Assembly: GCA_027621155.1 (NCBI GenBank) | Contig: JAQCCA010000003.1 | Location: 1 to 36,860 of the forward strand | Reading direction: 5' to 3' | Length of the DNA: 36,860 nucleotides | Source: Pseudomonadota bacterium | GTDB taxonomy: Bacteria; Pseudomonadota; Gammaproteobacteria; Francisellales; Francisellaceae | Shown here: one piece after another, positions 9,870 through 36,593 of the stretch | Layout of the letters: every line of letters starts with the position of its first letter | Numbering within the stretch: the stretch's first letter is position 1 | Notes under the pieces: model-generated | The model's input: the letters and a program-made list of their open reading frames with translations, nothing else | Databases searched by the model: none | What the model was told of the DNA's origin: nothing | Made by a program: the position numbers and the translations under genes

Positions 9870-10256
9870 CTATAAACCATGTTGCTGTAGTAACTTATGC
9901 GCCTGTTGATAGGCTGTCACAACATCGCGCACTGCAATACATTGAAAAGGCATGCCTTTACGCATCGCCGGAGATTGAAGCTTTGCTATCATCGTAGGGT
10001 CTTCTGTGACACGAAACATCCCCAAGCAATATTTTGCCAGATCATTTTTGACTGTTTTAAACCACACTGCCTGTTTTTTACGAGCGTCATGCGTGAATTG
10101 ATAATGTGCTTCAAATGTACTGATCAGTAAAAAAGGTATTTTCCTTTTAAGCAAACTATCACAATCATTAAGCCAATGAATCACCTCATCATAGTGTGGA
10201 TAGTTATGAAAATGCATGCGCACAATAGGCCAATCTTGAATATCACATTGGATCAT
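9870..10256 (-). CDS. Small protein of unknown function in the siderophore operon
   Basis: I do not recognise this 128-residue protein. It has no signal peptide, membrane helix or cysteine-pair motif. It begins with a beta-strand-like segment containing Asp-Trp-Pro-Ile-Val, has a central Phe-Leu-Leu-Ile-Ser strand, and ends in a helical segment. The overall look is a small alpha/beta fold, possibly STAS/SpoIIAA-like, but that is a guess. Its ATG overlaps the stop of the NIS synthetase-GNAT gene (ATGA), with AGAGG upstream as ribosome-binding site. Tight coupling suggests a role in siderophore assembly or handling. Confidence 0.75.
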   Translation of the reverse strand: MIQCDIQDWPIVRMHFHNYPHYDEVIHWLNDCDSLLKRKIPFLLISTFEAHYQFTHDARKKQAVWFKTVKNDLAKYCLGMFRVTEDPTMIAKLQSPAMRKGMPFQCIAVRDVVTAYQQAHKLLQQHGL

Positions 10257-12709
10257 ATTAAGACCTCTTTTTCTGCTTTTTCTGCTTTTTCTGCTTTTTC
10301 TGCTTTTCCTACTTTTTCTACACTTCCTGTATTTATTTCATCGGTTGCATTTATTACTTGAGCTTTATCATTTTGCTTAAATTTATCAGCCTCACAGATA
10401 AAAACATATGCTGTTTTCTCAGGTAGCTGAATCTGCCCATACTTTTTGTAGCCGAGCTTCACTGTGATTTTTTCTAATGCCACAACACTAACATCTGGCT
10501 CACACAACACACGATAAGCATTTAGCTGATCAAAGCAATATGCAGTTAATGCCCGCACAATCAAATGCCCATAACCCTGCCTAATAACATGTGACTTACC
10601 GATAAGGACATGCCAACCATAATCGAATTCACCCACTGGATAATATTGTGCAATCCGATCAGCACAAGCCTTGTAAATTTCAGCATAGCCAATCTCAACA
10701 TTATTGACACTTATAATAAATAGCTGTTGATGTCCCGTTGATAATGCCTGACAAAAATGACGACTTAATTCAATTTTTGATTTAGCTAAACGCCAGTGCT
10801 TAGCAACATGCGGCTCATTCATCCAGCAATAGAGTTTATCAATATCCTGAGATAGATTTAGCGCACGTAAGCTCACACATCCTTTTGTATAATGCTTACA
10901 TGTATCCTCGTAAACTTTAGCTAAATATAATGGATTGACAAGCTGATCCGTTGGCAGCACTTTAGGTCGTGATTTGGCATCACCATAGCCTACTTCAATC
11001 ACTCGCAGACGATTTAAACACAGTTTGGCATAATGCGGCTGATACAAATCAAAGCGTTTAAAACGTTCTTTTAACTCTGGGTGCTGCTTCTGATAACTTG
11101 CAATGCATTGATGTAACTTTTGATAAAACCGAATTTCAGGATAATGTAACTTATTAGACAAGATTTCAGATAAATAGCGATAGTGCACAACAAACAAGCC
11201 CGTTTGAATAAACTGCAACAAGTAATCATCTTCAACCTGTGGAATCGCCGCCTTGACTGACAATGGCAGGCTTGCTAATTCTAGCACAGGGTTTTGGCAA
11301 ATATTAATATCATCAACAAAGTCTTTCATTGCTAGCCCAACGGGCAAGCCATTATTTAAGAGCAAAATACTATTCTCACCATGTGGTGAAAAAACCATAC
11401 CATAGCGATATAAGAAATGAAGAAGTGGCGGCACAGTATTGGCAAAGTAAGCGTTAAGCCAATCATCAAGATCAACACCACTGTGCTTGATCATCTCATG
11501 GACTAAGGCGTTGCCATATTGATCTTGATGCACTAATGACGCCATCGTGATCGCTTTTTCATGTGTCTGAAGTTTACTAGTAATGCTTTCTCGCCAAATA
11601 CCCCCTAACTGCTCGCTAAACTGATAAGGCGCGCCATCAAAGTCACTGTAAAAAGGGTGTTTAACATAAATACTAGCCAACTCCCCTAACAAAATAAAGC
11701 GACAATCCTGACTTAAGAACACATCATTTTGTGCTATCGTTTGCACCCACTCTGTTAATAGTGGCGCAACCTGAGTCTGCTTTTTAGGAAGACCGCGATA
11801 TACTGCCGTATTAAAAATACTCAATGGCAATTTAACGCTATACTTGCTACTATCTGTGGTATTAGCAAAAGTCCGAATCGATTGCATCGCAAGATAATTA
11901 TCATCTGATTCGCCTAAATAAACGATCTCATTCTTTGCCAACATACAGCTAAATTGCTGCAAAATGACATTTTGCCACTGCCATTGATGCACAGGGACGA
12001 AAACATATAAATCCGGATTAAGCCCTTGTTTTATCAATTTTTCCTTAAATTGCATGTGCATATCATCAGATAGCTCATGCTTTAATATATCCTGATAGCA
12101 CATCGATGAGACCGCGCTAAAAGTAACCTTCTCCTTAACAACCGCCAAATAGTGTAACTTTTGTACTTGTTGCATTTCTGGGGCATATAGCGCATAGTCT
12201 TTGGCATTAAAACCAATACGCCCTTTATTGATCACAAACCATGGGTGCCCGTGCATATCACCCTCAATATCAGCATAGGGCTTATGATAAATCTCTTTTG
12301 CTGAAATCCCTGAGTTTTCAAGCTTTAGCCTGATATTCATATCTGCATACAGAGTATTATTGAGCTCTTTGATAAAGTGTGCAGCGGTGATAGAATCAAT
12401 ACCCGTTAAAGCCAAGGTGTCCACCACAAATTCAATAGCATCTAGCGCAGGATCAGCTTTGCCATTGATACATTTAATAATACTACCTGAAACAATATCA
12501 AGGTTACCAAAGATGCGTTTGATCGCCTGAAATTGATAATATTGATTAGGCGCAACATCAAGTCGATAGCATTTATCATTTTGAGCATCACAAACGGGCT
12601 TGAGTAACCCCTCGTAGCTAAATTCCTCAATTATTTTTTGAAGCAATGCAGTACTTGCCTTAACATAGTGCTTTTGGTTTTGCTGATTAAACAGCTCTGC
12701 GATCATCAT
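10253..12709 (-). CDS. NIS siderophore synthetase (IucC/AlcC class) fused to GNAT acyltransferase
   Basis: Residues 1 to about 600 form an IucA/IucC-family, NRPS-independent siderophore synthetase, which uses ATP to join a carboxylate to a hydroxylamine or amine. Visible markers are Gly-His-Pro-Trp, a Lys-Gly-Arg-Ile-Gly-Phe block, Val-His-Gln-Trp-Gln-Trp, Ser-Pro-His-Gly-Glu-Asn, and Lys-Asp-Phe-Val-Asp-Asp. Residues about 620-790 resemble the IucB/AlcB/RhbD acyltransferases that acylate hydroxylated diamines, with Tyr-Gly-Trp-His-Val-Leu-Ile-Gly and a Gln-Gly-Tyr-Gly acyl-CoA loop. The two activities are commonly encoded by separate genes. The tail is a Lys-Ala-Glu repeat. I chose ATG 12709 (818 residues), with AAAGGA upstream; an in-frame TTG lies at 12754. 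It follows the N-hydroxylase gene closely and overlaps the next gene by four bases. Confidence 0.88.
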   Translation of the reverse strand: MMIAELFNQQNQKHYVKASTALLQKIIEEFSYEGLLKPVCDAQNDKCYRLDVAPNQYYQFQAIKRIFGNLDIVSGSIIKCINGKADPALDAIEFVVDTLALTGIDSITAAHFIKELNNTLYADMNIRLKLENSGISAKEIYHKPYADIEGDMHGHPWFVINKGRIGFNAKDYALYAPEMQQVQKLHYLAVVKEKVTFSAVSSMCYQDILKHELSDDMHMQFKEKLIKQGLNPDLYVFVPVHQWQWQNVILQQFSCMLAKNEIVYLGESDDNYLAMQSIRTFANTTDSSKYSVKLPLSIFNTAVYRGLPKKQTQVAPLLTEWVQTIAQNDVFLSQDCRFILLGELASIYVKHPFYSDFDGAPYQFSEQLGGIWRESITSKLQTHEKAITMASLVHQDQYGNALVHEMIKHSGVDLDDWLNAYFANTVPPLLHFLYRYGMVFSPHGENSILLLNNGLPVGLAMKDFVDDINICQNPVLELASLPLSVKAAIPQVEDDYLLQFIQTGLFVVHYRYLSEILSNKLHYPEIRFYQKLHQCIASYQKQHPELKERFKRFDLYQPHYAKLCLNRLRVIEVGYGDAKSRPKVLPTDQLVNPLYLAKVYEDTCKHYTKGCVSLRALNLSQDIDKLYCWMNEPHVAKHWRLAKSKIELSRHFCQALSTGHQQLFIISVNNVEIGYAEIYKACADRIAQYYPVGEFDYGWHVLIGKSHVIRQGYGHLIVRALTAYCFDQLNAYRVLCEPDVSVVALEKITVKLGYKKYGQIQLPEKTAYVFICEADKFKQNDKAQVINATDEINTGSVEKVGKAEKAEKAEKAEKEVLI
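10267..10320. repeat. 9-bp tandem repeat encoding a Lys-Ala-Glu tail
   Basis: Four perfect copies of CTTTTTCTG occupy 10267-10302, and degenerate copies continue to about 10320. On the minus strand they encode repeated Lys-Ala-Glu at the C-terminus of the NIS synthetase-GNAT protein. The unit is a multiple of three, so copy-number change alters tail length without shifting frame. The array ends just before the ribosome-binding site of the next gene. Confidence 0.9.
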
Positions 12710-12755
12710 CTTTTTACATATCCTTTTCTTTGTTCTATACCCATCACAAGCCAAT

Positions 12756-14153
12756 TTACAGCATTTCTGCCATTGCTTCTTCGCCCTGCTTCACTTCTTT
12801 TTGTGCACTCTCTTGTGTTTTCTTTTGCTCTTTAAGATAACGTGCAGGCACGCCAAAATGCGTCAAACCATGTTGTGAGGCAAATTGATAATGTTTATAC
12901 CCAAGCAATTGATTGGCAATCAATGCACTGCGATAGGCACCAAGGGTTAAATCAGGGGCGCCAACACCATGGCTATGCATTTCAGCATTTTGTACAAAGG
13001 CACGTAACTCATGCACGTGTGCATGTTGCAGTTGATAGTTTTTATCGATCAAATAATTACCTGAATCATCAAGCGCAAAGACATCCGCCACCGTTTTTAA
13101 CCAGCACGATAAATTATCCTCATAACCCGTGGCAGCGATAATATGATCTGTTTCAACCATAAATGATTGCGCTTGATCACGTTGGTGATAATGGCATCTT
13201 AATGCTTGCTGCTGCTCACTTGAATAGCAGGGCTCAACATCAACAAGCTCGCTATTGCTAATAACTTCAAATGAGTGATCACCATATATCTTTCTTTGAT
13301 AGAGAAGCGCGTAGATTTCCTTAAGCGTCTCGCCACTAATACCTTTATGCAGCAAGCCCTGCTCAGTGACTAACTTTGCCTTTTTTTCTTTGGATAAATC
13401 ATAAAAGTAATCAATATAATCTGGTGAGAAATGCTCCAAGGCAAGTGGGGTATGCTCCATTGGGGAAAAGCTTTTGCTGCGCGTAATCCAAGTTAACTTT
13501 GTTGATATGTGCTTTGTAGACATCAAGTCTAAAAATATCTCAGCTGCACTTTGCCCTGAACCAATTAAAGTAATATGTTTTTTTGATAACAAGCTATCTT
13601 TTATATCAAGATACTGTGCACTGTGATGAATATTTTCCTTTATTTGCTGTGATGCGTCCCTTAAGGCTTGGGGTAGCTGTGGCACCGAACCCACGCCAAA
13701 GATGAGATTTTCAGTTGTCAGTTGCTTTACAAAGCCATTACCATCTTTAATCGCTACCTGCCAAATATATTTATTTTGCCGCTTTAGCACCTTAATTCTC
13801 ACTACCTCCATTGCAAAATGACAACTTGAGAGTTGTGCGATAACCCAGCGGCAATACTCATTATATTCTTTGCGTAGCATAAAAAAGCTCTCTTTAAAGA
13901 AAAACGGATAGAGCAAGCCTTGCGTTTTAAGATAATTTAAAAAACTAAAACGATTTGTCGGATCCGCCATCGTCACGAGATCCGCCATAAACGGCACCTG
14001 TAAAGTAGTTGTTGGCATCATAACTCCTGCATGCCAATTAAATTGAGCCTTTTTGTCAACAAACATACATTTTAATGACTTATCAGCTAATAGCGCGGCC
14101 AGGCTTAAATTAAATGGTCCAACACCAGCACCTATCACATCATAATGCTGCAT
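12756..14153 (-). CDS. FAD/NADPH-dependent N-hydroxylating monooxygenase, diamine type
   Basis: The enzyme hydroxylates a primary amine to start hydroxamate formation in siderophore synthesis. It has the FAD-binding Gly-Ala-Gly-Val-Gly-Pro-Phe-Asn-Leu (near residue 9), the NADPH loop Gly-Ser-Gly-Gln-Ser-Ala-Ala-Glu (near 199), and Ala-Thr-Gly-Tyr-Glu (near 342). The substrate-side segment Leu-Gln-Val-Pro-Phe-Met-Ala-Asp-Leu-Val-Thr followed by Asp-Pro-Thr-Asn resembles AlcA, DesB and RhbE, which act on putrescine, cadaverine or diaminopropane, more than lysine-specific IucD. No diamine-forming decarboxylase lies in the operon. Two ATGs are possible; 14153 is better spaced from GGAGG. The start overlaps the upstream synthetase gene. 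Confidence 0.9.
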   Translation of the reverse strand: MQHYDVIGAGVGPFNLSLAALLADKSLKCMFVDKKAQFNWHAGVMMPTTTLQVPFMADLVTMADPTNRFSFLNYLKTQGLLYPFFFKESFFMLRKEYNEYCRWVIAQLSSCHFAMEVVRIKVLKRQNKYIWQVAIKDGNGFVKQLTTENLIFGVGSVPQLPQALRDASQQIKENIHHSAQYLDIKDSLLSKKHITLIGSGQSAAEIFLDLMSTKHISTKLTWITRSKSFSPMEHTPLALEHFSPDYIDYFYDLSKEKKAKLVTEQGLLHKGISGETLKEIYALLYQRKIYGDHSFEVISNSELVDVEPCYSSEQQQALRCHYHQRDQAQSFMVETDHIIAATGYEDNLSCWLKTVADVFALDDSGNYLIDKNYQLQHAHVHELRAFVQNAEMHSHGVGAPDLTLGAYRSALIANQLLGYKHYQFASQHGLTHFGVPARYLKEQKKTQESAQKEVKQGEEAMAEML

Positions 14154-15870
14154 CATACACCTCCGCCATCAAGGGATTATTGATCTGGGTATACACTGAT
14201 TGCTGCTCTAATGGTGCTTGCAATTCGTCCAGACCGTTAAGACGCGTTAATAAGTTTGCTTTACTTGGTAGCGTCTCTGCTGTTAATAAATACTGACAAA
14301 ACCGATTGTTTGTTTGGTAAGTACTTGAGAAGCTCTCTAAAAAACAGATCACCTTATTAATTAATATTTCTTCTTCAATCTCGGCAGGAATTGCTAGAGC
14401 CTCAATAACTGCCAACAGTTGATTGACAATAAAATAATAACAAAAATGATGATCAATAAATGCTTCATTACCGTCACATAGATGAATCAACTGCTCGTTA
14501 GTGGCAACATGATGCAAATTTGGATGATCGTGAATATAGTAATAGCCCTGACTATCACGATAAAATCCCGCAACAGGTAAAGCATCTTCAAAGCGCACCA
14601 ATAAGTTCTGCTGGTGAGCCTCTAACGCTATACCGTATTCACTATAAAGCCATAACACTGGCGCAATCACACACTTAAGATAAGCATTTAGCCATTTTAC
14701 TGCTGCCTCTGGCAATGATGTTTTATCCTTTCGCGCATGATAAGCCACCATCTGATTTAAGCGGCAAATAGATTGCATCGGATGCAGACTGGTTAAACTC
14801 GCAATACAGCTAACGTCATCTTTAAGCGAGAAAGGATTATGCCGCACGATGCATATACTTGGCTCATACAACTTGGCACCCACTGTCAATCCCGCAAAAG
14901 CTGGATCTGTAATCAAAGAAAAACATGGAAATTTCCCTGCTAAAACATCCTTTAATTTGCCCCTTGCCAATACATCAACAGCGATACTGCGATAACACTC
15001 TCTTGTGGCATTAACACGCACTGAATTCGTAATCGCAATGTTAAGTGAAAATTTAAACATCACATCCACCTCTGGACTATAAACTGTGCGCACTGAGGTT
15101 GTCGCATAAAACCATGGTCCTAAAGTGCCTAAATCAAGTATTTTCCCAGCTCTAAGATATGCTTGAATCGCAGGCTGCTGCAATAGATAGCTAGCTTGCC
15201 ATGGATGAGTGACAAATAGCGTTTGACTGTCAACGAGTGTGATCCTAGGTTCGTTTTTTAAAAAGCACACAATAATTTCTGTCACTGAACGATCAAGGTT
15301 TGAGTGCATATCTATAATTGAGCAATCAACAATAAAATAATGGAGCTTAAACCCGCTTTGTGTTTCAGGTGAGTAATCAATCAGCTCTTGTTTATTAAAA
15401 CCCTCTCGCGACTTGCCATCAGGCTGTAAACGGTGCCCTAATAGATGATTTTGTTCACTTAATAGAAAATTAGACTGAACATCGAGCATATGATCGAGAC
15501 TAGACTGTCGATATGCCAAAATCGTAGCCAACTGCTCGGCGGAGTTAATAGTACGTCTTAATGTATCATCCAGATGCGTAAGTGAAATCGGCTCCGGCAA
15601 AGCCAATAAGATCAAATGAATTGCAAATAATGGGGTAATGTTTATCTGTTCATTAACCGTTTGATAACTTATTGGCAACTGCCAAGCTGGTGACTTAAGT
15701 CTTGATGACAAATGAACATTAATCAGTAAACAAGTGTTTTTTTCTTTGCATGGAATTTTTAAGCAATATTGATCATTGCTAATTTTCCTAAGCATATAAT
15801 GATATTTAAATTCACGGTAATAACAATTTAGTAAATGTTTTAAAGTCTCTTCATATGCACGCATTAGCAT
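14140..15870 (-). CDS. NIS siderophore synthetase (IucA/IucC family), first gene of iron operon
   Basis: This 576-residue protein is a second, divergent IucA/IucC-family synthetase, likely acting on the other carboxylate step of a citrate-based siderophore. Family markers include Thr-His-Pro-Trp-Gln near residue 229, Asn-Ala-Thr-Arg-Glu-Cys near 290, and Glu-Ala-His-Gln-Gln-Asn-Leu-Leu near 430, followed by a Tyr-Arg-Asp-Ser motif. Its N-terminal 120 residues are poorly conserved by eye. Citrate as backbone and the order of condensation are inferred from the aerobactin, schizokinen and rhizobactin pathways. A ribosome-binding site AAAGGAAAG lies eight bases before the ATG. It is the first gene behind the Fur-box promoter and overlaps the hydroxylase gene. 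Confidence 0.88.
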   Translation of the reverse strand: MLMRAYEETLKHLLNCYYREFKYHYMLRKISNDQYCLKIPCKEKNTCLLINVHLSSRLKSPAWQLPISYQTVNEQINITPLFAIHLILLALPEPISLTHLDDTLRRTINSAEQLATILAYRQSSLDHMLDVQSNFLLSEQNHLLGHRLQPDGKSREGFNKQELIDYSPETQSGFKLHYFIVDCSIIDMHSNLDRSVTEIIVCFLKNEPRITLVDSQTLFVTHPWQASYLLQQPAIQAYLRAGKILDLGTLGPWFYATTSVRTVYSPEVDVMFKFSLNIAITNSVRVNATRECYRSIAVDVLARGKLKDVLAGKFPCFSLITDPAFAGLTVGAKLYEPSICIVRHNPFSLKDDVSCIASLTSLHPMQSICRLNQMVAYHARKDKTSLPEAAVKWLNAYLKCVIAPVLWLYSEYGIALEAHQQNLLVRFEDALPVAGFYRDSQGYYYIHDHPNLHHVATNEQLIHLCDGNEAFIDHHFCYYFIVNQLLAVIEALAIPAEIEEEILINKVICFLESFSSTYQTNNRFCQYLLTAETLPSKANLLTRLNGLDELQAPLEQQSVYTQINNPLMAEVYDAAL

Positions 15871-27987: not shown

Positions 27988-29430
27988 TTATATAGCATCT
28001 TGCATTATTTTCTCAATCGCAGAAATCGCTTTTGCAACATTAGCAACTGCCGTACCACCCATGGCTGTTTTGCTATTCACTGCTGAGTCAATGCTTAATA
28101 TTTGATAAACATCGTTATCAATCATCACTGAAAAATGCTGAAACTCAGAGAGCGTTAAATCAGTTAATGACTTATTTTCACTTAAAGCATACGCGGTAAT
28201 TTCTCCGACGATATGATGCGCTTTTCTAAAGGCAATACCTTTTTTAGAGAGATAATCAGCAAGCTCCGTTGCCACACAAAAACTACCATCATAGTTTTTA
28301 TCTTTATTTATCGCTAAGCTTTCAACAGTTATCGTTGTTACTTTCAGTAAGTCACTCACGGTATCAACGGCTGCAAAGAGCGCCTCTTTGTCCTCTTGCA
28401 GATCTTTGTTATACCCCGATGGCAAGGCTTTAACGGTTGTTAATAGTGCAACTAAATAGCCATTTAAACGTCCTGCTTTACCACGAACCAACTCCATCGC
28501 ATCAGGGTTTTTCTTCTGCGGCATGAGTGATGAACCTGTCGTGACTAAATCACTCATTTCAACCAAGTCAAACTCAGTCGTTGAATAGATAATCATATCC
28601 TCAGCAAAGCGACTTAAATGTGTCCCAATAAGGCTAATCGCAGATAATAGTTCAATAATGTAATCGCGATCACTCACTGCATCTAGGCTATTTTGGGCAA
28701 TTTCATTAAACCCTAACGCATCTGCCATTTTTTGGCGATCTAATGCCCAAGCATTGCCAGCAATCGCCCCCATACCTAAAGGCGAGACATTAACGCGTTT
28801 TTTAATATCAATAAGTCTCTCATAATCGCGTTTAAGCATCTCATAAAAAGATAAGAAATAATGTCCCCAAGTGATTGGTTGCGCTTGTTGCAAATGGGTA
28901 TAACCCATCACAAACGCATCAATATTTGCTTTAGCTTGCGCGACAAAAGCTGCTTGCAAGGCTTTAATCAAATCACATAAATGCTCAATATGCTCAAGCA
29001 CCCATAACCTTGTTGCACAAGAGACCTGTTCATTGCGCGATCTTCCAGTATTGGCTTTATAGGCAAGATCACCTATTTTATCCACCAGTGATTGCTCAAC
29101 AAAGGTATGAATATCTTCAACACCATCATTGATTGCCTGCTGAATAAGATACGGATTATCATTAACCTCATGCTCGATCTCTGCTAAGGCTTGATGTAAC
29201 GCCTGTAACTCGCTATCAGATAAAACATTGATATCGCATAGTGCTTCCGTAAACGCTTTTGTTGCTTTGATATCATAAGGGAGCAGCCGATAATCAAAAC
29301 TCAATGATTCATTAAAGCGTACAAACAAGGGATTATTATCATCGCTAAAACGCCCACCCCAGAGTTTTTGTTTTCTTTGCATTTCTAAGCCATTACTTTG
29401 TTGCATTAATTTATCTGTTACTTCTGCCAT
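27988..29430 (-). CDS. argH: Argininosuccinate lyase
   Basis: ArgH splits argininosuccinate into arginine and fumarate, the last step of arginine synthesis. The 480-residue protein has the superfamily signature Gly-Ser-Ser-Leu-Met-Pro-Gln-Lys-Lys-Asn-Pro-Asp near residue 290, containing the catalytic serine. Its N-terminal block Lys-Leu-Trp-Gly-Gly-Arg-Phe is standard. Residues 1-20 precede the usual start, but ATG 29430 has the best ribosome-binding site (AAGGAT). It overlaps the deacylase gene by 13 bases and is the last gene of the arginine operon. Confidence 0.96.
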   Translation of the reverse strand: MAEVTDKLMQQSNGLEMQRKQKLWGGRFSDDNNPLFVRFNESLSFDYRLLPYDIKATKAFTEALCDINVLSDSELQALHQALAEIEHEVNDNPYLIQQAINDGVEDIHTFVEQSLVDKIGDLAYKANTGRSRNEQVSCATRLWVLEHIEHLCDLIKALQAAFVAQAKANIDAFVMGYTHLQQAQPITWGHYFLSFYEMLKRDYERLIDIKKRVNVSPLGMGAIAGNAWALDRQKMADALGFNEIAQNSLDAVSDRDYIIELLSAISLIGTHLSRFAEDMIIYSTTEFDLVEMSDLVTTGSSLMPQKKNPDAMELVRGKAGRLNGYLVALLTTVKALPSGYNKDLQEDKEALFAAVDTVSDLLKVTTITVESLAINKDKNYDGSFCVATELADYLSKKGIAFRKAHHIVGEITAYALSENKSLTDLTLSEFQHFSVMIDNDVYQILSIDSAVNSKTAMGGTAVANVAKAISAIEKIMQDAI

Positions 29431-30536
29431 GGCTTATCCTTTAATTCATTAAAAAATGTGATAAAAAATAGAACTCCCTCGTTGATTTGCTCTACATAAA
29501 TAAATTCATCGGTACTGTGGGAGCGCTTTGAATCTCCTGGTGAGAACTTAACACTTGGACAATTCACAATTGCCTGATCTGACGTCGTTGGAGAACCATA
29601 ACTATTGATACCTTTTGCTAATAATGCTTGCATTAATGGATGATCAAGTGGCGTTTTACTGGGCTTAATACGTAGTGATGTAGGTGTAATTTCTGATGCC
29701 ATATACTGGCGCATAATATGCAGTACATCCTCATTGCCATAGGCATCAGTCGATCTAACATCAACAACAAAATGACATTTTTCAGGGACAACATTGTGCT
29801 TTACGCCAGCGTTGATCATCGTCACACTCATTTTCACATCACCCAATGTCTCTGAAGTTTGTGCAAAATGATAATTATTAATCCAATTGATATCTTCAAC
29901 AGCTTTTAATATTGCATTATCTCCTTCATTGCGTGCAGCGTGTCCCGTCTTGCCATGGGCGACACAATCACAAACCATTAAACCCTTTTCGCTAATCGCA
30001 AGCTCCATGCTCGTCGGCTCACCAACGATCGCAAAATCAATAGCATCAAAAAATGTTAGCGCCAACTCAGCACCATTTCGCCCTGAGATCTCCTCTTCCG
30101 CAGCCGCGCATAGCAACAGATTAAAAGGTAAATCTGCCCTTTGATAAAAATAACTAAAAGTCGCTACCATACTCACCAATGCGCCACCGGCATCATTGGA
30201 TCCCAATCCATATAACTTACCATCAATAATTTCAGCACTATAAGGATCACGGGTATAGCTCTTACTCGGTGGCACAGTATCGTGATGCGAAATCAGTAAA
30301 ACAGACGGTTTATTATCATCAAAATATTTATTTTTAGCACACACATTATTACCAACTAAAGTACTAGTAATACCGCGTTCAAACAGCCATTGTTGAATAA
30401 ATGCCGCACTTTGTGCCTCGTCTTTTGAAATCGATGGAATTTCAATTAAACACTTCAGTAATTCCAAGGCTTCCGCTTGTTTATGTGTTATATCTTCAAT
30501 CAACACATCAGAATGCATACTTATATCATTTATCAT
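29418..30536 (-). CDS. argE: M20-family N-acylcitrulline deacylase (Bacteroidetes-type ArgE)
   Basis: The 372-residue metallopeptidase-fold enzyme has the M20 metal and catalytic residues in order: His-His-Asp-Thr-Val, Gly-Ser-Asn-Asp-Ala-Gly-Gly, Ala-Glu-Glu-Glu, Gly-Glu-Pro-Thr, and a C-terminal Arg-Ser-His-Ser-Thr-Asp-Glu. Throughout, it resembles the ArgE of Bacteroidetes arginine operons rather than E. coli ArgE. With an N-acylornithine carbamoyltransferase in the same operon, its substrate should be N-acylcitrulline (N-succinyl or N-acetyl), not N-acetylornithine. This is inferred from family and context. A very strong GAGGAGGTG ribosome-binding site precedes ATG 30536, immediately after the argB stop. 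Confidence 0.9.
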   Translation of the reverse strand: MINDISMHSDVLIEDITHKQAEALELLKCLIEIPSISKDEAQSAAFIQQWLFERGITSTLVGNNVCAKNKYFDDNKPSVLLISHHDTVPPSKSYTRDPYSAEIIDGKLYGLGSNDAGGALVSMVATFSYFYQRADLPFNLLLCAAAEEEISGRNGAELALTFFDAIDFAIVGEPTSMELAISEKGLMVCDCVAHGKTGHAARNEGDNAILKAVEDINWINNYHFAQTSETLGDVKMSVTMINAGVKHNVVPEKCHFVVDVRSTDAYGNEDVLHIMRQYMASEITPTSLRIKPSKTPLDHPLMQALLAKGINSYGSPTTSDQAIVNCPSVKFSPGDSKRSHSTDEFIYVEQINEGVLFFITFFNELKDKPWQK

Positions 30537-31349
30537 CTAGTGCACCTCCTCTGCCAATCTGATTGTCGTTACTTTAGCTTTCTCACCTTGCAAGGTATGA
30601 GCAATATTATCCGCATTACTAATTACCACTTGATTAACGTTAGAAGCTAGCGCGTCAAAGCAATTCTCAAGCTTAACCAACATGCCTTGTTGGATCTTGC
30701 CTTTTGTTTTTAAATGTTGATAGACATTTAAATCTAAGGCTTCAATCAATGAATGTGGATTAGCAATATCCTCATAAACCCCTGCTAAATCCATACAGTA
30801 ATATAAATTAACCTGATATTGATGCGCTAAGGCTTTTGCGATTTCATATGCTACTGTGTCAGCATTGGTATTTAAAAGCTGCCCATTACCATCATGCGTA
30901 ATCGGTGCAATGACAGGTAAAAAGTCATTATTGATCAAATCAATTAATACATTACGATTAACTGCTTTAACATCACCAACAAAGCCAAAGTCATGCATCT
31001 GAGCTTCACGCTTGTTACTTAGTAGCAAATCAGCATCGACACCACTTAGCCCCAATGCATTAACACCATAAGCTTGCAACTTAGCAACTATTTGTTTATT
31101 GATAACTCCGGCTAGCATCATCGTTACAAGATCTAATGACGCTTTATCAGTCACACGCCGACCATTAATAAAGGTAGATTCAACACCTAGACGCTCGGCT
31201 AACTCGCTAACTTGATCGCCTCCGCCATGCACGATAACGCATGGATCACTTTGCTGTGAAATAGCATGTAATAATCCATTGAGCTTACTGTCATCATCGA
31301 TTACACGCCCACCTATTTTGATGATATTAAGCGTTTTATGCAACTTCAT
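30537..31349 (-). CDS. argB: N-acylglutamate kinase (ArgB)
   Basis: ArgB phosphorylates the gamma-carboxylate of N-acylglutamate. The 270-residue amino-acid-kinase fold protein has Ile-Lys-Ile-Gly-Gly near the start, Val-His-Gly-Gly-Gly, and an Asn-Thr-Asn-Ala-Asp segment near residue 160. It is of the shorter Bacteroidetes type, and the acyl group may be succinyl rather than acetyl. Three ATGs are possible (31367, 31355, 31349); I prefer 31349 because AAAGG is nine bases upstream. The start overlaps the end of argF'. Confidence 0.93.
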   Translation of the reverse strand: MKLHKTLNIIKIGGRVIDDDSKLNGLLHAISQQSDPCVIVHGGGDQVSELAERLGVESTFINGRRVTDKASLDLVTMMLAGVINKQIVAKLQAYGVNALGLSGVDADLLLSNKREAQMHDFGFVGDVKAVNRNVLIDLINNDFLPVIAPITHDGNGQLLNTNADTVAYEIAKALAHQYQVNLYYCMDLAGVYEDIANPHSLIEALDLNVYQHLKTKGKIQQGMLVKLENCFDALASNVNQVVISNADNIAHTLQGEKAKVTTIRLAEEVH

Positions 31350-32349
31350 CGGCATAGACCTTTGCATTTAATAATGGTGCTTTTGACGTTTGTAGCTTTA
31401 AAGTTTTAACAAGTTCGGATAGCACATATTGCGCGGCATAGAGTCGATTCTCAGCTTGCTCAATAACAATTGAGCATTCAGAATCAAGCACGTCATCAGC
31501 GATCACAAGATTGCGTCTCACGGGCAAGCAATGCATCACCTTGGCATTGGGGGCATTTTTTAGCTTTTCTTGAGTAATCATCCACTTGTCATCGGCATTG
31601 ATCACCTTGCCGTATTCTTTAGTGCTTGACCAATTTTTGACATAGATAAAATCGGCATCTTTAAACGCCTCATCCTGGTCATATATCACTTGAGCATCAC
31701 CGATAAATTCTGAATCCAATTCATAGCCTTCAGGATGTGTCACTACAAACTCATAATCCATCAATTGCATACCTTCAGCAAACGAATTTGCTACTGCATG
31801 TGGCAAGGGATTAACATGTGGCGCCCAGCTTAACACAACTTTTGGTTTTTTAGGATAATCTGGCTTTTTATGCTCTTCAATCGTTAGTATATCAGCCAGA
31901 CTTTGCAAAGGGTGACGCAAGGCTGATTCTAAATTCACTATTGGACAATCCGTATATTTTTTAAATGCATTAAAAATTTGCTCTTGATAATCTTGCTCTT
32001 TGTCATTGAGCTTGGCAAAGGAGCGAATTGCGACAATGTCACAATAACTTGCAATAACTTGGGCGGCCTCTTTGATATGCTCAGGTTTATCAGTATTCAT
32101 CACCACACCTTCGTTAAACTCCAGTGCCCAACCATTATTCACATCAATTGGTAATACATTTAAACCAATATTTTGTGCCGCTTTTATCGTTGAGATTTTA
32201 GTGCGTAAACTTGGATGTAAAAAAATAATGCCTAAAGTTTTATGTGCACCTAATTTATCATTCGCATATGGATTTTGCTTAATCTCAATACATGATTGAA
32301 TCGCTTCTTGGATATTATCAATATCCTTAATACTTAAATACTGCTGCAT
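31336..32349 (-). CDS. argF': N-succinyl-L-ornithine carbamoyltransferase (SOTCase-like)
   Basis: The enzyme transfers carbamoyl phosphate to an N-acylated ornithine, producing N-acylcitrulline. Over about 320 residues it closely follows the Bacteroides fragilis succinylornithine enzyme as I recall it. Carbamoyl-phosphate residues are in Ser-Leu-Arg-Thr (47-50), His-Pro-Leu-Gln (146-149) and His-Cys-Leu-Pro (273-276). Pro89, in Asp-Lys-Pro-Glu-His, occupies the position where acetylornithine enzymes have Glu (Xanthomonas Glu92) and succinylornithine enzymes have Pro. It is not an ordinary ornithine carbamoyltransferase. The tail is about 17 residues longer than in B. fragilis. A good AGGAGT site precedes ATG 32349. 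Confidence 0.9.
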   Translation of the reverse strand: MQQYLSIKDIDNIQEAIQSCIEIKQNPYANDKLGAHKTLGIIFLHPSLRTKISTIKAAQNIGLNVLPIDVNNGWALEFNEGVVMNTDKPEHIKEAAQVIASYCDIVAIRSFAKLNDKEQDYQEQIFNAFKKYTDCPIVNLESALRHPLQSLADILTIEEHKKPDYPKKPKVVLSWAPHVNPLPHAVANSFAEGMQLMDYEFVVTHPEGYELDSEFIGDAQVIYDQDEAFKDADFIYVKNWSSTKEYGKVINADDKWMITQEKLKNAPNAKVMHCLPVRRNLVIADDVLDSECSIVIEQAENRLYAAQYVLSELVKTLKLQTSKAPLLNAKVYADEVA

Positions 32350-32395: not shown

Positions 32396-32578
32396 GTTGG
32401 CTGAGCGTTAGTCGAAGCCCTTACATTTGCGTTGGCTGAGCATGAGTCGAAGCCATTACAAATGTTACCCCTCACCCGCGCAGCCCAAGCTGCACGAGCA
32501 ATCCCGCAAGGGGAGAGGTGCCAGTTGATGAAGCTTATGCTGTCTTATTATTAGACTATCCTTCGACTTTGCTCAAGG
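32396..32578. repeat. Cluster of REP-like repeats in the argD-argF' gap
   Basis: Two direct copies of the unit GTTGGCTGAGC-GAGTCGAAGCC (32396-32419 and 32431-32454) and one degenerate inverted copy (32559-32578) flank a GC-rich block at 32467-32520. That block contains a GCAGC-CCAA-GCTGC hairpin. The cluster fills most of the only sizeable gap (206 bases) in the arginine operon. The inverted copy supplies the last codons of argD. The unit is the same as at 20337-20398. Confidence 0.75.
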
Positions 32579-33731
32579 TGCGGTTAACACTTTTAGATGA
32601 GTGTTCAGCTGCAATCACTTCTTTTAATACCAAAATAAATGCATCAATATGCGATTGCTGAATCGTCAGTGCAGGCAGTAATCTCATCACTTGTCCGGCT
32701 TGAGCAACACCTGTAAATATATACTTTTGCTTTAAAAGTGCATCACGAAGCGCTTTGCAATCTAAACTAAATTCAACACCTAGCATAAGCCCACGCCCCC
32801 GTACAACTGTTACTTCAGGGATTTGTAGTAATTGCTCTTTTAAATACTCCCCTTGGTGCTTGGCATTATCAATAAGCGCTTCATCGTCAATGACTTCAAG
32901 CACAGCTAACATCGCAGCACAGGCAAGATAACTACCACCAAAAGTTGTGCCTAACATATTTTTCAATACCGGGATATTATCTTTGATCAACACCCCGCCA
33001 ACAGGAAAACCATTACCCGCCCCCTTGGCAAAGGTAATTAAATCCGGTTCAATGCCTGATTGCTGGAAACTAAAAAACTCCCCTGTGCGTCCGAAGCCAG
33101 ATTGAATCTCATCAACGATTAACTTTGAACCGTGCGATTGAGATAACTCACTTGCAGTCTGTAGAAAATGTATATCCGGTTCATAGATGCCGGCAATGCC
33201 TTGAACCCCTTCAATAATCACCGCTGCGACGTCATTATCCATCGCTTCTTTCAATGCATCTATATCATTTAACGGCACACTAATGACTTGAAAACCATTT
33301 GAAAATGGTGACTGTATAGCAGGATTATCAGTAACTGCCAAGGCAAGATTTGTGCGCCCATGAAAGCTATTACTAATGCTAATTATCTTGTTACGTTGAG
33401 TGACAACTCCGGCAAGTTTAAGCGCATTTTCTACCGCTTCCGCCCCTGAATTAACTAGAAATAACTGGTAATTATCACAAGCACTTAACTGTGCCAATTT
33501 ATCTGCCAGATGTTGCTGCATCGGCATCTCAACACTATTGGAATAAAAGCCAATATATTGCAACTGTTGAGTGAGTTTCTCAATATAATGCGGATGACTA
33601 TGCCCAATCGAGATCACCGCATGCCCACCGTATAGATCAAGATATTGTTGAGCATTTTCATCCCAAACATATAAATCTTGAGCTTTATTTAATGTAATAG
33701 GATAACGCTCATATACTTCATATAAATTCAT
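32556..33731 (-). CDS. argD: N-acylornithine aminotransferase (ArgD)
   Basis: ArgD is a PLP-dependent class III aminotransferase converting N-acylglutamate semialdehyde to N-acylornithine. The 391-residue protein has Asn-Ser-Gly-Ala-Glu-Ala, Phe-His-Gly-Arg-Thr, Asp-Glu-Ile-Gln-Ser-Gly-Phe-Gly-Arg-Thr-Gly, and the PLP lysine in Thr-Phe-Ala-Lys-Gly near residue 236. Overall it is of Bacteroidetes type. The last seven or so residues (Arg-Thr-Leu-Ser-Lys-Val-Glu-Gly) are translated from a REP-like repeat that also sets up the stop codon. A good AAGGTGA site precedes the ATG, nine bases after argC. Confidence 0.94.
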   Translation of the reverse strand: MNLYEVYERYPITLNKAQDLYVWDENAQQYLDLYGGHAVISIGHSHPHYIEKLTQQLQYIGFYSNSVEMPMQQHLADKLAQLSACDNYQLFLVNSGAEAVENALKLAGVVTQRNKIISISNSFHGRTNLALAVTDNPAIQSPFSNGFQVISVPLNDIDALKEAMDNDVAAVIIEGVQGIAGIYEPDIHFLQTASELSQSHGSKLIVDEIQSGFGRTGEFFSFQQSGIEPDLITFAKGAGNGFPVGGVLIKDNIPVLKNMLGTTFGGSYLACAAMLAVLEVIDDEALIDNAKHQGEYLKEQLLQIPEVTVVRGRGLMLGVEFSLDCKALRDALLKQKYIFTGVAQAGQVMRLLPALTIQQSHIDAFILVLKEVIAAEHSSKSVNRTLSKVEG

Positions 33732-33740
33732 AAAATCACC

Positions 33741-34712
33741 TTAAAAAACACTGGCTTTGAGTGACAAACCTGACTCACAAGGCAAGCCAAACATAAGATT
33801 CATATTCTGTAGAGCTTGCCCTGAAGCCCCTTTAATCAAGTTATCAATGACACTGACAACATGCAGATACTCACCATGTTTTTTCACGGATAATAAACAA
33901 GCATTAGTATTAACAACCATTTTTAAATCTGGTTCATGGTCAAGTACTTTGACAAAGGCACTTTGCTCGTAAAATGCTTGCAAAATTTGTTGTGCCTTTA
34001 TTTCAGTGAGATCTGATTTAAAGTAAATTGAGGCAAAAATACCACGACTAAAATTCCCTCGCATTGGCACAAATAATATTTGATTGTTTGCTGATAATTT
34101 CAACGCTTGCTTAATTTCAGCTAGATGCTGATGCGAGAATGCTTTATAGACAGACATATTATTGCTGCGCCAGCTAAAGTGTGAAGTTCCACTGGGCATC
34201 ACACCGGCTCCGGTTGAGCCGGTAATGGCATTGATATGAACATCTCCATCAACATAATGACAAAAAGGCATTAATGCCAGAATAATAGTAGTCGCAAAGC
34301 AACCAGGATTAGCAATCTTAGATGCAACTGCAATCTCACTTTGCTTAATATCCGCCAAACCATAGACAAACTCTGGATTTGCCTGAGTATCTCGATGATC
34401 CTGACTTAAATCAATTATCTTAGTCCCCTGCTTGAATTGTTGGGATTTAAGCACTTCTTTGGCTTGCCCGTGCCCCACACATAAAAACACAACATCGACA
34501 TTATAATTTATCTCTTTATCGAATACGCGTTTATTATCGACCAGATAGAAATCATGATGGGTTTTAGCGATTAACTCACCGGCTTGTGAGGTACTATGTA
34601 TGAATTGAATATCCACCTGCGGGTGATATGTAAGTAGTCGCAAAAGCTCACCTGCGGTATAACCCGCACCGCCTAAAATACCGACCTTTATTTTTTTGTT
34701 ATGCTCGATCAT
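33741..34712 (-). CDS. argC: N-acyl-gamma-glutamyl-phosphate reductase (ArgC)
   Basis: ArgC reduces N-acylglutamyl phosphate to the semialdehyde with NADPH. The 323-residue protein opens with the nucleotide-binding Gly-Ile-Leu-Gly-Gly-Ala-Gly-Tyr-Thr-Ala-Gly-Glu-Leu. It contains the catalytic cysteine in Asn-Pro-Gly-Cys-Phe-Ala-Thr near residue 138, and His-Gln-His in the later half. It is the short Bacteroidetes-like form. It starts six bases after the argG stop with a strong GGGTGAGG ribosome-binding site that spans that stop. Confidence 0.95.
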   Translation of the reverse strand: MIEHNKKIKVGILGGAGYTAGELLRLLTYHPQVDIQFIHSTSQAGELIAKTHHDFYLVDNKRVFDKEINYNVDVVFLCVGHGQAKEVLKSQQFKQGTKIIDLSQDHRDTQANPEFVYGLADIKQSEIAVASKIANPGCFATTIILALMPFCHYVDGDVHINAITGSTGAGVMPSGTSHFSWRSNNMSVYKAFSHQHLAEIKQALKLSANNQILFVPMRGNFSRGIFASIYFKSDLTEIKAQQILQAFYEQSAFVKVLDHEPDLKMVVNTNACLLSVKKHGEYLHVVSVIDNLIKGASGQALQNMNLMFGLPCESGLSLKASVF

Positions 34713-34718
34713 AAAACC

Positions 34719-36593
34719 TCACCCTGTCACCGCTGCTTTGATTGAGCTTAATTGCGTTGTCTTGACTGACTTATCTTTATTTTGCAATTGATAATAAGCA
34801 GCAAGTTGTGTGCTCATCACCTTAGTAAATCCTTTGACATCATCACCACTGAAACTTGCATTTTCCTCACCATATTTGGCATTTTGCGCCTGCATTAAAT
34901 CATGGTCAGACTGTATACCCAACAGTACGAAATGAAGTGGATAAAGCTTCACAAATACATCTCCTGTGACCTTTCCCTGAGTCGATAATAACAAGGCTTC
35001 AATATCACGCGCCGCCGGATCAAGAAATTGTCCTTCATGCACCATCTCAGCATAGGTATCACTTAAGCTTGTTTTAATTTTAAGCTGTGCTTTAGTTAAC
35101 ACATGCTTTTCTAATAAGTGATGTGCCTTTATCAGAATCAACGGTGCAGGGGCTTCAAAACCTACCCGCCCTTTGATATTGATAATAGTGTCACCAACAT
35201 GAATGTCGCGTCCAATACCATATTGACTGGCAAGATCGTTAAGCTTCTGAATCACTTGAATTGAATTTGATAACTCGTCATTTAAGGCAATTGGCTCACC
35301 ATTGATAAAGGTAATCTTTAGCGTTTCTTCTTCCTCTTGCGCTTTAGCTATCTTAGTTGGCCAAGCCTCATCATTTAGATATAAATGTGAACTTAAGGTC
35401 TCAGCACCGCCAACAGAGGTGCCCCATAAGCCTTTATTAATCGAATAGTTTTTGCTACTTTCGCTGCAACTTGCACCATGCTTGATCAGATATTCCTGAG
35501 TAGCAGCACGCGATAATTTCAAATCTCGAATGGGCGTGATAATTTGAGCTTCTGGAGATAATATATGAAACATCAGATCAAAGCGCACTTGATCATTGCC
35601 GGCTCCCGTGCAGCCATGTGCAATCTTAGTGATCCCCATCGTATTTGCTACCTTGGCAATCGTCATTGCTTGAAAAGCACGCTCAGCACTGACAGATAAA
35701 GGATAACAATTATTTTTTAGTGCATTAGCAAAGATCAGAAACTTAACACACTCCTGATAAAAATCTTTTGTGACGTCAATGCTTTGATGCGTTTTCGCAC
35801 CCAGCTGATAAGCCCTGCGTTCAATCTGTGCTAACTCAATTGGGGTAAAACCACCCGTATTAACAGTCACAGTATGCACTTCTAGATCATGCTCCTGCTG
35901 TAAATACTTAACACAGAAGCTTGTATCCAACCCTCCACTAAACGCGACAATAACCTTCATTGATTGCTCCCTTTTATTATTTTTATTACCTTTATTATTT
36001 TGTAATATACCTTGCTCTTTTTGCTCTTGCTGTTCTTTTTGCTTTTGTTTTCTTTGCGGATCGTACAGCATCCCTGTGCATAAACAATTTTGATATTCTT
36101 TGGCTTGCAAAATAGTAAAGTTTACGCAACTCGCACATCCCTGCCAAAATGTCTTATCTGTCGTTAAGCCAGTAAAGGCAGCCGGCTCATAACCCAACTC
36201 ATAATTAATACGCATCACCTGCGGATTAGTCGTTAACCCAAAGATCTTGGCATTAGGATAATATTCACGCGCTAACATAAATGCTTTTAACTTTAAGGCT
36301 TTGGATAAACCTAAGTTGCGATATTCTGGGAAAACAATTAAGCCTGAATTAGACACATAAGCTTTGTCTTGCCATGATTCAATATAACAAAAGCCTACGA
36401 TTTGATTAAGTAAGCGATCAATCGCAATAACTGCATGTTTTGAGCGTATTTTTTCCTGCAAATAGTTCACACTGCGCTTGGCAATACCGGTCTTTCTTTG
36501 CTTAGCACTTTCTTCAATCTGTACGGCAATGGCACTGGCAAAATGGCAATGCGTACTATTAGCAATAACAATGTCGACATGACTTAGCTTCAT
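34719..36593 (-). CDS. argG: Fusion: GNAT acyltransferase + argininosuccinate synthase
   Basis: One 624-codon frame joins two arginine enzymes. Residues 1-179 are the GNAT protein found beside argG in Bacteroidetes, with Lys-Arg-Ser at 39-41, Asn-Ser-Gly-Leu-Ile-Val (82-87), an acyl-CoA loop near 90-102, and a cysteine tail (Cys153, Cys156, Cys170, Cys172). It probably acylates glutamate in place of ArgA. Residues 180-211 are a Gln/Lys/Glu/Asn linker. Residues 212-624 are argininosuccinate synthase, with P-loop Ala-Phe-Ser-Gly-Gly-Leu-Asp-Thr-Ser and Tyr-Ser-Ile-Asn-Lys-Gly-Leu-Trp-Gly. An internal ATG at 35960 has its own GGGAG site, so a free 413-residue ArgG may be made as well as, or instead of, the fusion. 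Confidence 0.9.
   Translation of the reverse strand: MKLSHVDIVIANSTHCHFASAIAVQIEESAKQRKTGIAKRSVNYLQEKIRSKHAVIAIDRLLNQIVGFCYIESWQDKAYVSNSGLIVFPEYRNLGLSKALKLKAFMLAREYYPNAKIFGLTTNPQVMRINYELGYEPAAFTGLTTDKTFWQGCASCVNFTILQAKEYQNCLCTGMLYDPQRKQKQKEQQEQKEQGILQNNKGNKNNKREQSMKVIVAFSGGLDTSFCVKYLQQEHDLEVHTVTVNTGGFTPIELAQIERRAYQLGAKTHQSIDVTKDFYQECVKFLIFANALKNNCYPLSVSAERAFQAMTIAKVANTMGITKIAHGCTGAGNDQVRFDLMFHILSPEAQIITPIRDLKLSRAATQEYLIKHGASCSESSKNYSINKGLWGTSVGGAETLSSHLYLNDEAWPTKIAKAQEEEETLKITFINGEPIALNDELSNSIQVIQKLNDLASQYGIGRDIHVGDTIINIKGRVGFEAPAPLILIKAHHLLEKHVLTKAQLKIKTSLSDTYAEMVHEGQFLDPAARDIEALLLSTQGKVTGDVFVKLYPLHFVLLGIQSDHDLMQAQNAKYGEENASFSGDDVKGFTKVMSTQLAAYYQLQNKDKSVKTTQLSSIKAAVTG
35961..36056. repeat. 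Low-complexity A/G-rich tract linking GNAT to argG
   Basis: On the coding strand the tract is made of CAAAAGCAAAAAGAACAGCA-like and AATAATAAAGG-like units, encoding Gln-Lys-Glu and then Asn-Lys runs. It replaces the stop codon and spacer expected between separate GNAT and argG genes. The imperfect repetition suggests expansion by slippage. Confidence 0.7.
35967..35971 (-). promoter_or_regulatory. Internal ribosome-binding site for a separate ArgG
   Basis: GGGAG lies six bases before ATG 35958-35960, the codon where free-standing ArgG proteins begin. This is strong for an internal site and suggests the ancestral argG start is still used. Confidence 0.6.

Follow-up and report, generated by a model that had tools for sequence, protein, structure and literature searches.

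In the window, the whole stretch of 36,860 nucleotides analysed here, a GNAT acyltransferase and a complete argininosuccinate synthase (ArgG) are encoded on the minus strand by one frame of 624 codons that begins with ATG (Table 1). The first-pass annotation had described the two as fused in-frame with no stop between them, and ORF analysis confirmed that the frame is uninterrupted. The GNAT domain comprises residues 1-179 and is followed by the linker (residues 180-211) and by ArgG (residues 212-624). With Pfam, the N-terminal domain of ArgG was found at residues 213-373 and its C-terminal domain at 383-598, and the match to TIGR00032 exceeded the curated cut-off. Among the NCBIfam matches to the 624-residue protein there was no fusion model. 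The predicted structure of the full-length protein contained two confident domains with a low-confidence linker between them, where residues 192-207 had a pLDDT under 50. A promoter scan upstream gave nothing that exceeded chance.

An error in the A-rich tract that hides a stop codon or a frameshift was ruled out, since the same uninterrupted frame was present in each of the six genomes analysed from the genus (618-630 residues) and in three further genera, which gives nine genomes of four genera. The carriers include Cysteiniphilum litorale, C. marinum, C. halobium, Fangia hongkongensis, Facilibium subflavum and one uncultured gammaproteobacterium. In the tree the window genome clustered with Cysteiniphilum, and the fused gammaproteobacterial clade was supported by 100/100 when both domains were used. 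The refuting case named in the first-pass annotation, relatives that all have two separate genes, does not apply: those of the same lineage are all fused, although in most Bacteroidota relatives the two genes are separate and lie next to each other.

Table 1. Features of the fusion gene and of the arginine cluster (positions in the window)
Feature	Position	Strand	Basis or comparison
GNAT acyltransferase + linker + argininosuccinate synthase fusion gene, 624 aa	34719..36593	-	ORF, Pfam, 9 genomes/4 genera
GNAT domain, residues 1-179, candidate N-acylglutamate synthase of ArgA2/BT3761 type	36057..36593	-	homologue identity, fold match, dN/dS
Invariant Cys4 (C153, C156, C170, C172), C-terminal end of GNAT	36078..36137	-	invariant columns in 37 homologues
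Two 9-base tandem arrays encoding the linker	35972..36057 (35972-36001; 36012-36057)		repeat analysis
Linker, residues 180-211, 32 aa, Q/K/E/N-rich	35961..36056	-	length 26-35 aa among congeners and 8-9 aa in the sister genera
Shine-Dalgarno AGGGAG of the internal argG start, duplex -7.6 kcal/mol	35967..35972	-	stronger than at any of the other 29 start codons inside the gene
Internal argG start codon, ATG	35958..35960	-	GTG in Fangia; absent in fused Bacteroidales genes
ArgG domain, complete, residues 212-624	34722..35960	-	PF00764, PF20979; TIGR00032 above cut-off
argC, N-acyl-glutamyl-phosphate reductase	33741..34712	-	TIGR01850 above cut-off
argD, class-III aminotransferase	32556..33731	-	domain/profile matches
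Transcarbamylase, succinylornithine (SOTC) type	31336..32349	-	closest PDB entry B. fragilis SOTC (1js1/2fg6), E 2e-102; P/P/V (PMC4581275)
argB, N-acylglutamate kinase	30537..31367	-	TIGR00761 above cut-off
M20 deacylase (ArgE/DapE/LysK type), presumed N-acylcitrulline deacylase	29418..30536	-	domain/profile matches
argH, argininosuccinate lyase, final cluster gene	27988..29430	-	sequence and position; order as in Persicobacter

The fusion gene heads a cluster in which it is followed by argC, argD, the transcarbamylase, argB, the M20 deacylase and argH. Elsewhere in the window, an apparent siderophore synthesis cluster with IucA/IucC-like proteins and an N-hydroxylase-like enzyme was recognised from the sequence alone at 9870-15870 (minus strand). 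An IucA/IucC-like protein at 10253-12754 (minus strand), likewise judged from the sequence alone, has an extra acyltransferase-like part. It finishes with a KAEKAEKAEKAEKE repeat tail that may reflect a further in-frame expansion of repeats in this genome.

The GNAT domain and the acyl group of the pathway

The GNAT domain was firmly assigned from its homologues and from its predicted structure (pLDDT 92.8), and the match to PF00583 at residues 49-120 (E 8e-4) fell slightly short of the curated cut-off. The domain was aligned with 37 homologues; its identity to arginine-cluster GNATs was 46-64% across other genera and Bacteroidota and 46-56% for the Bacteroidota clusters, as expected for an ArgA2 homologue. 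The best structural matches to the model were the N-acetylglutamate synthases (NAGS) of N. gonorrhoeae (Z 17.3) and M. tuberculosis (ArgA, Z 16.3). Their lead is modest because other GNAT folds follow at Z 15.6 and below, and the fold similarity of the model leaves the substrate unfixed. When solved structures were searched by sequence no clear GNAT relative was obtained (E about 0.005); relatives surfaced by the fold search only. The four invariant cysteines form a CxxC...CxC pattern, a possible metal site, of which no mention was found in the literature consulted.

The rest of the draft genome, which is about 90% complete, yielded neither argA nor argJ, and the argA model matched only argB, below its cut-off. 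The fused GNAT is therefore the only first-step candidate seen. Its designation in the first-pass annotation as the first enzyme of the pathway can be kept in this sense and refined to a likely N-succinylglutamate synthase. The Bacteroidota relative BT3761/ArgA2 is described as required for arginine synthesis, and its assignment as an N-succinylglutamate synthase is based on genetics and genomic context (PMC7311316, PMC9026213).

The acyl group was judged from the transcarbamylase. SOTC is described as having A/S/P/V/Q, P and V/I/E where the acetylornithine enzyme AOTC has Glu92, Asn185 and Lys302 (PMC4581275), and the window transcarbamylase reads P, P and V in the alignment. The GNAT is more likely an N-succinylglutamate synthase than an N-acetylglutamate synthase because all three succinyl-diagnostic residues are present. 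From the succinyl anchors of B. fragilis SOTC (His176, Arg178 and Arg278), His176 and the HCLPVRRN motif are kept. Arg178, which holds the succinyl group in the B. fragilis enzyme, is replaced by Asn, so that acetylated intermediates are still conceivable. The GNAT would then be an N-acetylglutamate synthase and the operon would run on acetylated intermediates, as might also be suggested by the NAGS among the closest folds and by the Caldithrix abyssi homologue, which is reported as NAGS on data unpublished there (PMC5317091). Against the P/P/V residues and a transcarbamylase match of E 2e-102 to SOTC versus E 7e-48 to AOTC, we regard this as unlikely, though a serious alternative.

Distribution and a second fusion in Bacteroidales

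Among 369 evenly drawn gammaproteobacterial genomes, no such GNAT was found apart from the window's own. In other genomes of the family to which the window belongs (group g5), ArgG was only about 30% identical to the fused ArgG, versus 47-59% for the ArgG proteins of Bacteroidota. GNAT and argG are usually neighbours in Bacteroidota, and in most cases they overlap slightly or are separated by a short gap. An annotated GNAT lies beside argG in Bacteroides finegoldii, a tblastn match extended across both genes in Bacteroides, Parabacteroides and Phocaeicola, and in Persicobacter the order is that of the window: GNAT, argG, argC, argD, transcarbamylase, argB, M20, argH. The operon is of the Bacteroidota type, and the distribution and the identities, which are unrooted evidence, suggest that it was likely acquired from Bacteroidota by transfer. 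Operons of the same type were also seen on plasmid-classed records of Persicobacter (plasmid pPP3, L142) and Bacteroides finegoldii (L141), a possible transfer route.

A survey of 395 Bacteroidota genomes yielded 31 candidates with long open frames or with matches that span both domains. Three of them were fused, all from one Bacteroidales family, and the other 28 proved to be separate genes, so frame length alone is misleading. At L131 and L132 the ArgG frames are open upstream (644 and 649 residues) and the GNAT lies in another frame; at G044, where a frame of 584 residues was reported, the locus has an ArgG frame of 425 residues after a stop.

Within the Bacteroidales family (14 genomes) six genomes carried the fusion (L133, L134, L135, L138-L140), and two had separate genes, which belong to another lineage (L136, L137). 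The fused genes lie in the arginine operon and have a linker of about 7-9 residues, and no start codon with a ribosome-binding site was found at their ArgG junction. A tree built from both domains placed the gammaproteobacterial and the Bacteroidales fusions in two distinct clades, each with 100/100 support, and a single origin was rejected (AU p 0.012). By these phylogenies, the GNAT-argG fusion arose a second time, independently, in one Bacteroidales family.

The linker and the internal argG start

The linker was confirmed as a stretch of 32 residues rich in Gln, Lys, Glu and Asn, and the low-complexity DNA from which it had been said to derive consists of 9-base tandem units. Pairwise dN/dS was 0.02-0.05 for GNAT and 0.05-0.07 for ArgG; the linker dN was 0.06-0.31 versus 0.007-0.05 for the domains. 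The linker indels were all multiples of three, which is weak evidence by itself because the repeat unit has nine bases. Most linker codons are a single step away from a stop codon. The linkers of three congeners were evolved neutrally along the tree of fourfold-degenerate sites (length 1.31). All six tips were stop-free in 0-0.03% of the simulations, and with the long branch left out the remaining five were stop-free in 0.15-0.85%. On average a stop was expected in 4.5-4.9 of the six congeners and was observed in none. Since a neutral linker almost never stays stop-free, the frame through it is maintained by selection. The GNAT-ArgG join in Cysteiniphilum and its relatives, which form a small marine bacterial family, is old and kept by selection.

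The ribosome-binding site and ATG noticed earlier inside the frame were recovered, with AGGGAG ending 6 bases upstream of the start codon, and are kept in four genera. An in-frame start codon was present at the first residue of ArgG in 9/9 gammaproteobacterial copies, ATG in eight and GTG in Fangia. The Shine-Dalgarno duplex ranged from -5.6 to -11.6 kcal/mol across the nine genes and was strongest in Fangia (-11.6). When 24-34 internal start codons per gene were compared, the argG site beat every other one in six of the nine genes and was near-best in the rest. The control with synonymously recoded linkers was mixed; the fraction of recoded sequences that were as strong was 0.000-0.03 in four Cysteiniphilum genes and 0.10-0.53 in the other five, and the match partly follows from the purine-rich K/E/Q codons. 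The GNAT starts in the genus had a Shine-Dalgarno score of about 0, which is no proof of weak initiation. Internal initiation at argG is likely, and one gene probably gives two proteins, the fusion and free ArgG, because the start signals for ArgG alone are still carried. The earlier suggestion that the cell may make both is strengthened by their retention in four genera and is plausible.

If the internal signals were relics of the old argG start, only the 624-residue fusion would be made. An obligate GNAT-ArgG enzyme appears to work in nature, because the Bacteroidales genes are fused and have no usable internal start, and the selection on the linker frame and the part of the Shine-Dalgarno strength dictated by the encoded amino acids also fit. 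For the window we consider it improbable, since the Shine-Dalgarno sequence and the start codon persist in four genera at large divergence and the change from ATG to GTG in Fangia, beside the strongest site, still left a start codon. It is highly improbable that the open frame works as two proteins, with most ribosomes starting at argG and the fusion arising as a minor and neutral side product of stop loss. The poor Shine-Dalgarno at the GNAT start and the elevated linker dN would agree with it, but the linker stops predicted by neutrality were absent and there is no stop after GNAT, which can therefore be produced only as part of the fusion.

Linker lengths bear on how the frame was opened. 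Within the genus the linker has 26-35 residues; in Fangia, Facilibium and the uncultured genome it has 8-9 and is free of repeats. That repeat expansion itself destroyed the GNAT stop, as the first-pass annotation had proposed from the repetitive linker DNA, is hardly credible with three sister genera fused through such short linkers and 100/100 support for the fused gammaproteobacterial clade. By parsimony, the expansion most likely came later and lengthened a pre-existing fusion in Cysteiniphilum, because the sister genera are fused without repeats.

Proposed history and relation to known fusions

Taken together, a transferred operon, the loss of a stop, the growth of a linker and the production of a fusion plus free ArgG form the explanation that we consider probable as a whole. 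We infer that a Bacteroidota-type operon (GNAT-argG-argC-argD-SOTC-argB-M20-argH) was acquired by an ancestor of the Fastidiosibacteraceae, in which the stop between GNAT and argG would have been lost. The resulting single protein would have an N-acylglutamate synthase, probably an N-succinylglutamate synthase (step 1), at its N-terminus and argininosuccinate synthase at its C-terminus. Selection would then have held the frame open with both domains constrained, and in Cysteiniphilum 9-base repeats would later have extended the linker from 8-9 to 26-35 residues. Since argG retains its former ribosome-binding site and start codon within the fused frame and the GNAT start is almost without a Shine-Dalgarno sequence, one mRNA would most likely give little fusion protein and more free ArgG. 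ArgG enzymes are tetramers, so the two products may form mixed tetramers with few GNAT heads. We propose tentatively that a new bifunctional N-succinylglutamate synthase-ArgG joins free ArgG in such tetramers, that the number of GNAT heads sets the first-step versus the ArgG capacity and that the second fusion, in Bacteroidales, is obligate.

Fusions of the first-step enzyme have been reported with ArgH (PMC1382215), the kinase (PMC1865377) and ArgC (PMC4490483). No GNAT-ArgG fusion was found in the open-access literature searched, in line with the earlier statement that no described enzyme of this form was known. ArgH(A)/H-NAGS of Moritella, Vibrio and Alteromonas likewise combines a GNAT-type first-step enzyme with a late arginine enzyme in gammaproteobacteria and is thought to derive from adjacent operon genes (PMC1382215, PMC4490483). 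In the window, however, the GNAT is joined to ArgG, with argH as a gene of its own; the GNAT is N-terminal and not C-terminal and belongs to the Bacteroidota ArgA2 family, and the internal ribosome-binding site of the partner is kept. The first-step enzyme is also fused to an arginine enzyme in NAGS-NAGK of Xanthomonas and NAGS-ArgC of Haliangium (PMC1865377, PMC4490483), but there the partners catalyse steps 2 and 3. ArgA2/BT3761 is likewise described as an arginine-operon GNAT beside an SOTC-type transcarbamylase (PMC7311316, PMC9026213), and in Bacteroides and Persicobacter the GNAT gene is directly upstream of argG; the Bacteroidota protein is separate, whereas the window GNAT is the N-terminal domain of ArgG. 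The fused Bacteroidales genes share the domain order and the arginine operon with the window and differ in their independent origin, their linker of about 7-9 residues and the lack of an internal argG start.

ArgG is thus added to ArgH, ArgB and ArgC as a partner of the first-step enzyme. The fusion arose and persisted at least twice, once with and once without a retained internal start, which offers a natural comparison for asking why the enzyme of the committing step is coupled to a late one. Best-hit annotation may label the gene as ArgG only, and the first step would then be reported as missing. The operon would place the succinylated arginine route of Bacteroidota in cultivable gammaproteobacteria.
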